Assembly (NCBI GenBank): GCA_947166905.1 | Contig: CAMVFZ010000002.1 | Coordinates: 1-64,000 of the forward strand | Reading direction: 5' to 3' | Length of the DNA stretch: 64,000 nucleotides | Source: an uncultured Prevotellaceae bacterium | GTDB taxonomy: Bacteria; Bacteroidota; Bacteroidia; Bacteroidales; UBA932 | Program-made: the position numbers and the translations under genes | Notes under the pieces: model-generated | Database searches by the model: none | Told to the model about the DNA's origin: nothing | What the model saw: the letters and a program-made list of their open reading frames with translations, nothing else | Shown here: piece by piece, positions 17,322 through 19,788 of the stretch | Layout of the letters: each line of letters begins with the position of its first letter | Position numbering within the stretch: position 1 is the first letter of the stretch

Positions 17322-17352
17322 AAAGAGCCAGGTTACTAGCCTGGCTTTTTTG
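17322..17352 (+). terminator. Rho-independent terminator downstream of SGNH hydrolase
   Basis: AGCCAGG-ttactag-CCTGGCT followed by T-run. Confidence 0.8.
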
Positions 17353-17360
17353 CTGCATGC

Positions 17361-17590
17361 TGTCGCAGGTGTGCGCGAAGTGCTGCAGGTGTGAGGCAAA
17401 AGTGTCGCAGGTGTGCGCGAAGTGCTGCAGGTGTGAGCAAAAGTGTCGCAGGTGTGCGCGAAGTGCTGCAGGTGAGAGCAAAAGTGTCGCAGGTGTGCGC
17501 AAAAGTGTCGCAGGTGTGCGCGAAGTGCTGCAGGTGTGAGGCAAAAGTGTCGCGGATGTGAGATAAAAAGTGTCGCAGGTGTGACAAAAA
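17361..17590. repeat. Tandem array of about 11 ~21-bp units with GTCGCAGGTGTG / GCTGCAGGTGTG variants
   Basis: Alternating units tgtcgcaggtgtgcgcgaag and tgctgcaggtgtgagcaaaag read directly. Confidence 0.97.
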
Positions 17591-17712
17591 TGGCTGACCT
17601 GCGACGCTGGAAGCGCTGGAAGGCCGAAAACCGTCGCAGATCGGGCAAAAATATCACACCTGCGACGGTAGTAGCCAAGACCTGCGACGGTAGTAGCAAG
17701 ACCAGCGACGTT
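17548..17712. repeat. Palindrome-bearing repeat block, copy 1 (direct repeat with 19529-19695)
   Basis: Near-identical ~165 bp to copy 2; contains GTCGCAGGT..ACCTGCGAC (17572-17605) and GTCGCAG..CTGCGAC (17633-17666) inverted repeats. Confidence 0.95.
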
Positions 17713-17732
17713 TTAAAATGACAGCAGGAGGT

Positions 17733-17856
17733 CAAAGGCATTGTGCCTCCGAGAGGCGTGGACGCCCGTGTCCACGTGAACGGGGGGACCATGAGCGTTA
17801 GCGAAATGGTGGGATGAGCACGTAGTGCGAACCGGGTCGGAGGCACAATGCCTTTG
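17733..17856 (+). other. Nested-hairpin structured element (copy 1)
   Basis: 20-bp perfect outer inverted repeat CAAAGGCATTGTGCCTCCGA / TCGGAGGCACAATGCCTTTG enclosing three internal hairpins; shares core GGGGGGACCATGAGC..TAGCGAA(A)TGGTGGG with 30362-30478. Confidence 0.85.
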
Positions 17857-18110
17857 GCCGATGGGGCAGGAAGGGGCAAACGTTTTTGATGCATTTGGCG
17901 GGGATGGGTGGCCGATTTTAGGGTTTTTGCCATGGATAATCATGAAAAGAAACGTTTTTTTGCACGGTAAAATCGGCCATAGAGGTGTACGGACGGGCTA
18001 TTCTTGCAAATAAGTGTTTACATTTTTCAGTAAACGGTTTTTTCTCTTGTTATTTGCGATAGAACTGCCGGCGCGGTGCCAGCGGTCATCATCACAAATA
18101 ATAGAGTATT

Positions 18111-18572
18111 ATGAAAAACTTTTTGACCGTTACTACAGATGAATTCGGGAACTTTTCTTTCAGTACAGACTTTAGTTTCCCTGCCGGCGAATCTGGGAAA
18201 GCGTTTAAGGTTAACAGAAAAGACACTGATTACCAAGAACTTGCAAAAGCATTAACAGGCTGCGATTCAAATGTTTTCAGCGCTATTGATGTGCTAACCA
18301 GTGCAAGAAAGGATGCAAAATATGATTATGGTTTCCTGCATCCGGAGCTTGAAGATAAGCTAAAAGAATGGCGCTTGAATAAAGCCAAGGAAGCGAAAGT
18401 CCCCGCGTATATGATTATGGGCCAGCAAACGCTGTATAACATTGCGGATGTCGCTCCAATCAATGAGAAAGAACTAAAGGAAATTCCCGGTTTCGGTCAC
18501 ACTATGTTTGAACGCTACGGTGCTGAATTACTGGACATCATCGGCAGATATCTTCAACCCTTTATTGAGTAA
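18111..18572 (+). CDS. Stand-alone HRDC domain protein
   Basis: LKEWRLNKAKEAKVPAYMIMGQQTLYNIADVAPINEKELKEIPGFGHTMFERYGAELLDII matches HRDC fold signature. Confidence 0.8.
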   Translation: MKNFLTVTTDEFGNFSFSTDFSFPAGESGKAFKVNRKDTDYQELAKALTGCDSNVFSAIDVLTSARKDAKYDYGFLHPELEDKLKEWRLNKAKEAKVPAYMIMGQQTLYNIADVAPINEKELKEIPGFGHTMFERYGAELLDIIGRYLQPFIE

Positions 18573-18574
18573 AA

Positions 18575-19519
18575 ATGGCTTTCCAACGAGTTGTGGCCCG
18601 GGTCCTTCCGGACAAAAGCGTACAAAAAGTCTATCCATTCCACATTAGCTTGAAGGGTATGGAATCGACGTTGCTTTGCCGATGCGACGATGATTTCGAT
18701 CATTTGGAAAAAAGCTTTTATGTATCGTCGTATATGGCTAACTGTCTGGTAATCATCGGCATAGTAATGTCAAACCATGGGCATTGTGCGGTGTTGGCGA
18801 CGGATCTTGCATCGGCGGTGCGTGCTGGGGAATTAATAAAGAAACGCCATTCTCAATATTTGAGTTGGAAGTACCCGGAACGGAAAGTGATGATGCGGGC
18901 CGATATTAATGTGCAACACCTTGATTCTGAATGGTATGTGAGGAATGCTTTGGCGTACATTGCCAGGAATGCGATAGATACGGGCCATAGAGTAGAGGAT
19001 TACCGATGGTCAGGATATCGCGGGATGTTCGCAGGAGGGATGTGTCAGGAAGGAGTAAGGCGAGTGTCGATGATGTCGCGGCGAGAGCGTGAGGCACTGT
19101 TTCATACGCACGAGGATTTGTCCGATGTCCCATGGATTATAAACGAATTTGGAAGTGTAGAACCCGCGAGCGCCTGCGACTACAGGTACCTGGAAAGCGC
19201 TTTTGGGAATGATCAAGCCTTTTTCCTTAAGATGATTGGTTCTGTTAACGTGGCGGAAATGACGCTGAAGTTGGAGCTAAACGGACTCACCCGCCAGACA
19301 GATTCTCATATGATAGCCATTGTTAAGAATCTGGCTTACAAGTGGTTCCAAAAAACTTTGCTGGATCTGACTCCGGAGATGAAATCCCGCTTGGCGTCCT
19401 ATCTGTACAAGGCTTACCGGACTACTCCTGCGCAGCTGGCCCGGTGCCTGGGTCTGTCGCGAGAGATTGTCGAAACTCTTATCGGCCATGGAAAGGTCCC
19501 GGATCCGTTGCGGGTGTGA
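18575..19519 (+). CDS. RAYT-like (Y1/HUH, REP-associated tyrosine) transposase with C-terminal HTH-like extension
   Basis: YPFHISLKGM...VIIGIVMSNHGHCAVL (HxH) ... YVRNALAYIARNAIDTGHRVEDYRWSGYRGMF (catalytic Tyr region and DYRWSxY typical of the Y1/RAYT family); C-terminal TPAQLARCLGLSREIVETLI HTH-like. Confidence 0.82.
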   Translation: MAFQRVVARVLPDKSVQKVYPFHISLKGMESTLLCRCDDDFDHLEKSFYVSSYMANCLVIIGIVMSNHGHCAVLATDLASAVRAGELIKKRHSQYLSWKYPERKVMMRADINVQHLDSEWYVRNALAYIARNAIDTGHRVEDYRWSGYRGMFAGGMCQEGVRRVSMMSRREREALFHTHEDLSDVPWIINEFGSVEPASACDYRYLESAFGNDQAFFLKMIGSVNVAEMTLKLELNGLTRQTDSHMIAIVKNLAYKWFQKTLLDLTPEMKSRLASYLYKAYRTTPAQLARCLGLSREIVETLIGHGKVPDPLRV

Positions 19520-19528
19520 GGGCAAAAG

Positions 19529-19695
19529 TGTCGCGGATGTGAGAGCAAAAGTGTCGCAGGTGTGACAAAAATGGCTGACCTGCGACACTGGAAGGGCTGG
19601 GAGGCCGAATACCGTCGCAGATCGGGCAAAAATATCACACCTGCGACGGTAGTAGCCAAGACCAGCGACGGTAGTAGCCAAGACCTGCGACGGTA
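19529..19695. repeat. Palindrome-bearing repeat block, copy 2
   Basis: Direct repeat of 17548-17712 with scattered substitutions. Confidence 0.95.
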
Positions 19696-19699
19696 ATAC

Positions 19700-19733
19700 A
19701 AAAAAGAGCCAGGCGAAAACCTGGCTCTTTTTT
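19700..19733. terminator. Bidirectional rho-independent terminator
   Basis: AAAAAAGAGCCAGG-cgaaaa-CCTGGCTCTTTTTT, perfect 14-bp inverted repeat. Confidence 0.9.
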
Positions 19734-19788
19734 GTGGGATGCCCGATCTGGTCGGGCATGACATGGGTGAGACCTCGGGAAGGACGGG

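Follow-up and report, generated by a model that had tools for sequence, protein, structure and literature searches.

The REPtrons formed by RAYT (TnpAREP) enzymes, such as E. coli RayT (PDB 4er8), combine a Y1/HUH fold, a gene lying between palindromes of its own, inverted doublets dispersed over intergenic regions (REPINs), a private repeat for each RAYT, diverged paralogues and an absence of near-identical gene copies within a genome. Subclass 2.6 of TnpAY1 (Bertels group 5), from Bacteroidetes, is described in the accessible part of PMC6006769 as lacking GT[AG]G and as having atypical secondary structures at the gene as well as in other parts of the genome, with a median protein length of 179 aa and the motifs NH[LIV]H, WQ and YIH[QN]NP. 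Bacteroidetes are also among the hosts of the CGTC-tagged REPs, which have 4–5-nt loops and no associated transposase (PMC3733652).

The locus analysed here, from a gut Bacteroidales genome, resembles the RAYT REPtrons in all the traits listed, the fold being a predicted one in our case. In contrast to the 165-aa E. coli RayT, its enzyme has 314 aa with a long C-terminal part, contains an HxH motif with a small middle residue and lacks both the GTAG guide and the residues contacting it, while 16/17-nt loops, 22-nt outer arms and a partner gene set it apart from the characterised REPtrons. Compared to subclass 2.6, the proteins are longer (~310 aa), carry NH[GCAS]H and Y[IV]PRNA and have no WQ, and they are accompanied by a partner gene, of which the accessible part of PMC6006769 makes no mention for the subclass. 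The motifs of the clade fit none of the TnpAY1 subclass signatures in Table 1 of the same paper; the one closest in character, within the part of it available, is subclass 2.6, which likewise comes from Bacteroidetes and has no GTAG. Some stems read (C)GTCGC as in the CGTC-tagged REPs, but here the stems vary freely between species. With the IS200/IS605 elements (IS608, ISDra2) the enzyme shares the catalytic fold (Foldseek) and, presumably, the single-stranded DNA (ssDNA) chemistry; in contrast to them, no near-identical mobile copies with tnpA were present, and the putative mobile unit does not include the gene. The HRDC domain of RecQ and RNase D makes up the C-terminal half of the partner protein in the window (the whole 64,000-nt stretch of DNA that was analysed), which is, however, a stand-alone protein without helicase or nuclease, its HRDC being joined to a tag characteristic of the RAYT loci. 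A search of the open-access literature brought up no article connecting RAYT with HRDC in a bacterial system. By its predicted fold and its organisation the system belongs with the RAYT REPtrons, yet GTAG and the guide residues are missing from it, and it is apparently an undescribed, unusual version of the REP/RAYT repeat-spreading systems. The features of the locus are as follows:

17326–17346, + strand: terminator-like hairpin AGCCAGG..CCTGGCT, 3′ of a GDSL gene, probably outside the system
17361–17571, + strand: left array of ~10 direct arms (GTCGCAGGT and variants) with a period of 20–23 nt
17572–17666, + strand: left REPIN-like unit of 95 nt, two inverted hairpins with 9-bp stems, 16-nt loops and a 27-nt spacer
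17667–17710, + strand: two inverted arms, ACCTGCGAC / ACCAGCGAC, ~22 nt apart
18111–18572, + strand: partner gene (153 aa) with the N-terminal tag MKNFLTVTTDEFGNFSFSTDF and a C-terminal HRDC domain
18575–19519, + strand: RAYT (Y1/HUH) gene (314 aa) with H68/H70, Y128 and a C-terminal helical HTH-like region, as predicted
19507–19552, + strand: two direct arms with a 23-nt period, overlapping the 3′ end of the RAYT gene
19553–19647, + strand: right REPIN-like unit of 95 nt, near-identical to the left unit
19648–19695, + strand: two inverted arms, ACCAGCGAC / ACCTGCGAC, 22 nt apart
19698–19735, no strand assigned: bidirectional terminator-like hairpin (AGCCAGG/CCTGGCT hairpin at 19707–19726), probably outside the system

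An earlier, sequence-only reading of this DNA had noted an HRDC gene and a RAYT-like gene in tandem between near-identical palindromic blocks. Both observations were confirmed: the HRDC stop and the RAYT start are separated by 2 nt, and the pair is bracketed by a 158-nt direct repeat with 96% identity (17540–17697 and 19521–19678), one copy on each side. The flanking palindromes proved to be real inverted units, while the left block additionally contains the tandem array of ~10 more arms, which had been lumped in with them. A separate element (17733–17856), located 3′ of the left unit and 5′ of the HRDC gene, has 23-bp inverted ends GGTCAAAGGCATTGTGCCTCCGA; 33–34-nt pieces of this element are present at two further places in the genome. 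The palindrome ATGCCCGATCTGGTCGGGCATGAC at 19736–19770 also accompanies ~5 of the unit's other genomic copies; it may be a second dispersed repeat sharing its insertion sites with the unit.

The same reading had placed look-alike terminators at both extremities and suggested that the gene pair might itself be mobile. The two hairpins with the AGCCAGG/CCTGGCT stem do exist (shuffle expectation 0.01 per window). A rare stem shared by the two ends (it has three copies in the genome), together with a gene order around the site which is not conserved in 29 relatives, where the peptidase and GDSL genes that neighbour the locus do not lie next to each other, would suit a composite mobile element comprising the whole 17.3–19.7 kb block and bounded by the terminator hairpins. 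This explanation is, nevertheless, very improbable: such a hairpin was found at just 4 of the 102 other loci, on which ground the hairpins were rejected as element ends, and paralogous RAYTs within one genome were merely 40–53% identical, with no recent duplicates, which also speaks against the gene pair as a mobile unit. The two terminators are probably incidental to the RAYT system.

The predicted structure of the RAYT protein, built from 68 natural relatives, had a mean pLDDT of 91.4, and its best match in the PDB (Foldseek) was 4er8, in which the E. coli RAYT is complexed with a REP hairpin (E 5.6e-4, probability 1.00); the TnpA transposases of IS608 and ISDra2 ranked next. The catalytic tyrosine was invariant (68/68) and each histidine of the HxH motif was present in 67 of the 68 relatives, the middle residue being mostly small (G, C, A or S) and not bulky. 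A profile alignment with E. coli RayT paired the HUH and Tyr motifs, at a weak hhalign probability of 6%, and the guide-contact residues W94/Q95 of the E. coli enzyme had no counterpart in the clade. The 314-aa protein had no model match in Pfam, NCBIfam, PHROGs or PADLOC; Pfam Y1_Tnp (PF01797), which did not match the window protein, was matched weakly by 14 of 19 relatives (best E 5e-5). With the HUH/Tyr residues aligned and the predicted fold matching 4er8, the initial assignment to HUH-type transposases was upheld and, according to the model, 18575–19519 encodes a RAYT-type Y1/HUH enzyme. Two other, distant RAYTs occurring together in one genome (L028 and L029; 280 and 294 aa, with NHIH and YILRNP) each had direct repeats of their own on either side (67 nt at 93% and 51 nt at 86%, respectively).

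Of 300 genomes of the family, 40 contained the RAYT clade, distributed over 5 of 26 genera; among the genomes sampled from the order's other families there was none with it. The named records carrying it were mostly Bacteroidales MAGs from the ruminant forestomach; three matches in Fibrobacter or Clostridia MAGs were all located on short contigs and were probably mis-binned.

A small gene of the partner families adjoined the RAYT gene in 64 of 80 loci, usually ending within 10 nt of the RAYT start, while ~16 of the 80 loci had no recognised partner. Three partner types were distinguished: A (~140 aa), B (117 aa) and H, containing HRDC, the last occurring at 16 of the 80 loci. Types A and B were related over 73 columns (hhalign E 7e-13), while A and H were alike in the first 25 residues only (E 3e-6). 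The three types share an N-terminal tag, so that the HRDC protein encoded in the window represents one form of a partner general to these loci. The HRDC assignment itself was firm (Pfam HRDC 2.3e-18, 66.3 bits against a threshold of 23.8; 15/15 relatives matched HRDC). Type A was helical, with a confident predicted model (pLDDT 86) that had no match in the PDB (best E 0.2), and was seen exclusively beside RAYTs (9/9 matches in 36 genomes). PADLOC matched the HRDC part alone, through DpdF-type models, and a defence-system reading was rejected. At two loci an HRDC partner of 215 aa was located downstream of the RAYT gene (L035, 2418–3062; L083, 4918–5562). Of the proposal of an HRDC accessory factor, the accessory role is probably right, but HRDC is not the sole type.

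The partner might also be a repressor or anti-transposase holding the RAYT inactive, an explanation compatible with the rest of the interpretation preferred below and one we regard as possible but doubtful. Its gene lies close upstream of the RAYT gene and often overlaps the start of the latter, which would suit a stoichiometric regulator, and varied C-terminal ends on one common tag would suit a tag that binds the RAYT. HRDC, however, serves RecQ and RNase D as a nucleic-acid-binding module, which better fits a helper acting on structured DNA, and some loci hold two partners (H plus A).

The 95-nt core unit consists of two inverted hairpins (GTCGCAGGT-16 nt-ACCTGCGAC) located 27 nt apart and, as ssDNA, forms a single long hairpin (z = -6.5; every shuffle was less stable). 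A search of 89 distinct loci for perfect 9-bp stems ending in AGGT/ACCT, with loops of 8–30 nt permitted, produced 124 hairpins, in which the loop was always 16 or 17 nt, and none in threefold shuffled sequence. The stem design across the family was N5-AGGT/ACCT-N5′, with a spacer of 27–28 or ~40 nt between the hairpins in most pairs; the spacer tracked the partner type, being 27–28 nt with A or H and mostly 40 nt with B. Species differed in the five outer stem bases, and the changes were compensatory (44 and 46 doubly changed cells of the stem against ~12 in shuffles), and the outer arms showed additional pairing at positions outside those used for the selection of units. The arms beyond the unit had a direct orientation on its left side and an inverted one on its right; among four close relatives, 162 of the 165 steps measured exactly 22 nt. 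In the flank adjacent to the stem the pairing was limited to Y:R, and GTAG at the hairpin foot was absent from the flanks next to the stem across the loci. The motif GGTAGTAG 3′ of the hairpin, previously likened to the GTAG/GGAG recognition tetranucleotide, was confined to the two window copies among ten in the genome and was absent from the other eight, so that this comparison had to be abandoned.

Different RAYT loci had their own private stems; for example, a single genome (G048) with three RAYTs contained three stems, GGCGCAGGT, GTTCAAGGT and GGGCAAGGT. In the 2.1-Mb genome of the window, GTCGCAGGTGTG had 26 exact sites against 0 for its reversed control, and the unit was present in ~10 copies, of which the eight outside the locus were all intergenic (8/8 outside ORFs of at least 100 aa). 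A joint query with the units of 15 species recovered dispersed copies, chiefly of a genome's own type, in nearly all of the 15 RAYT genomes and in none of the eight genomes without a close RAYT (in G006 the sole match was the flank itself). Because the units are species-specific, this control is weak, and a structure-based covariance model was therefore used, a genome being counted as positive with at least 6 matches on both strands taken together. Within the genus, units were found in 20 of the 21 genomes that have the RAYT and in 1 of the 40 that lack it (Fisher p 7e-14, in a test that ignores kinship), and in 14 of 15 against 1 of 40 after removal of the six genus genomes known to feed the model (p 5e-11, likewise ignoring kinship). 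In one exception (G038) a RAYT was present and the covariance model found no unit; in the other (G011, an assembly 85% complete) there were 18 unit matches and no close RAYT, which means that either the repeat family is an orphan or the RAYT gene is missing. The repeats consequently track the RAYT, and the earlier claim that this Bacteroidota RAYT-like system has an unusual repeat family of its own is borne out.

Orthologous sites were compared, using concatenated flanks, in four close relatives (G422–G425) with 12–18 unit matches each; some sites were uninformative, the flank being inverted, repetitive or split between contigs. A clean empty site was identified, with a ~266-nt element (arms, unit, arms) in G424 and uninterrupted sequence between conserved flanks in the other three, for which gain in G424 is simpler than loss in three relatives. 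At other sites, one or two of these genomes had a unit, or occupancy was shared, and no target duplication was evident at the compared sites of these genomes. At two orthologues (L306 and L307) of a site where another genome has a REPIN-like element (L271), a different palindrome with GCCGTCAACACGGC ends was present, which suggests shared insertion hotspots.

These data bear on the explanation that the RAYT and its partner form a chromosomal DNA-binding system, for nucleoid organisation, supercoiling or transcript termination, with the units as fixed binding sites whose turnover is due to host recombination alone. It agrees with the intergenic position of all eight other units in the window's genome, with at least eight unit sites common to related species and with the contraction of tandem arms by direct-repeat recombination, one unit copy having lost 103 nt between direct CACCTGCGAC repeats. 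The catalytic His and Tyr residues, needless for a pure binder, are conserved, though, and the 266-nt element is missing at the clean orthologous site in three relatives, and we consider this explanation unlikely.

It appears quite probable, instead, that the locus is REPtron-like, with a domesticated RAYT and a tandem partner matched to dispersed units which the enzyme likely recognises, nicks and spreads. Since neither GTAG nor W94/Q95 is conserved, recognition and the choice of the cleavage site must differ from those of the characterised RAYTs. By analogy with the systems covered in the accessible parts of PMC6006769 and PMC8266576, the RAYT would act on units exposed as folded ssDNA, for example on the lagging strand, and, on the same analogy, would cleave and mobilise them to new intergenic sites through an ssDNA intermediate. 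AGGT/ACCT with the 16/17-nt loop may provide a common recognition frame, with the N5 stem bases as a private key, and the 22-nt arms (about two helical turns) may offer extra docking sites for further molecules, perhaps through the C-terminal HTH-like region. The partner may bind the RAYT through the shared 25-residue N-terminus and either help it to load on structured DNA or restrain it, in which case HRDC would be one of several interchangeable effector ends. The fuller picture of a previously undescribed three-component ssDNA repeat-spreading machine, with a modular tag-docked partner whose exchangeable effector end is HRDC or one of two helical types of unrecognised kind, large symmetric repeats with constant 16/17-nt loops, outer arms on a 22-nt ruler and a five-base private key, is put forward tentatively, our confidence in it falling somewhat short of even.

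The published models of TnpAREP are based on a GTAG guide and a single protein, while this clade represents a GTAG-independent solution with a conserved partner gene. It offers covarying enzyme/repeat pairs in dozens of natural variants, several pairs within one genome, as well as presence or absence of the repeats at the species level. With such natural variants, the partner and the presence/absence pattern at hand, three questions become directly testable: what a RAYT recognises, whether it needs accessory factors, and whether RAYTs actually move REPINs.
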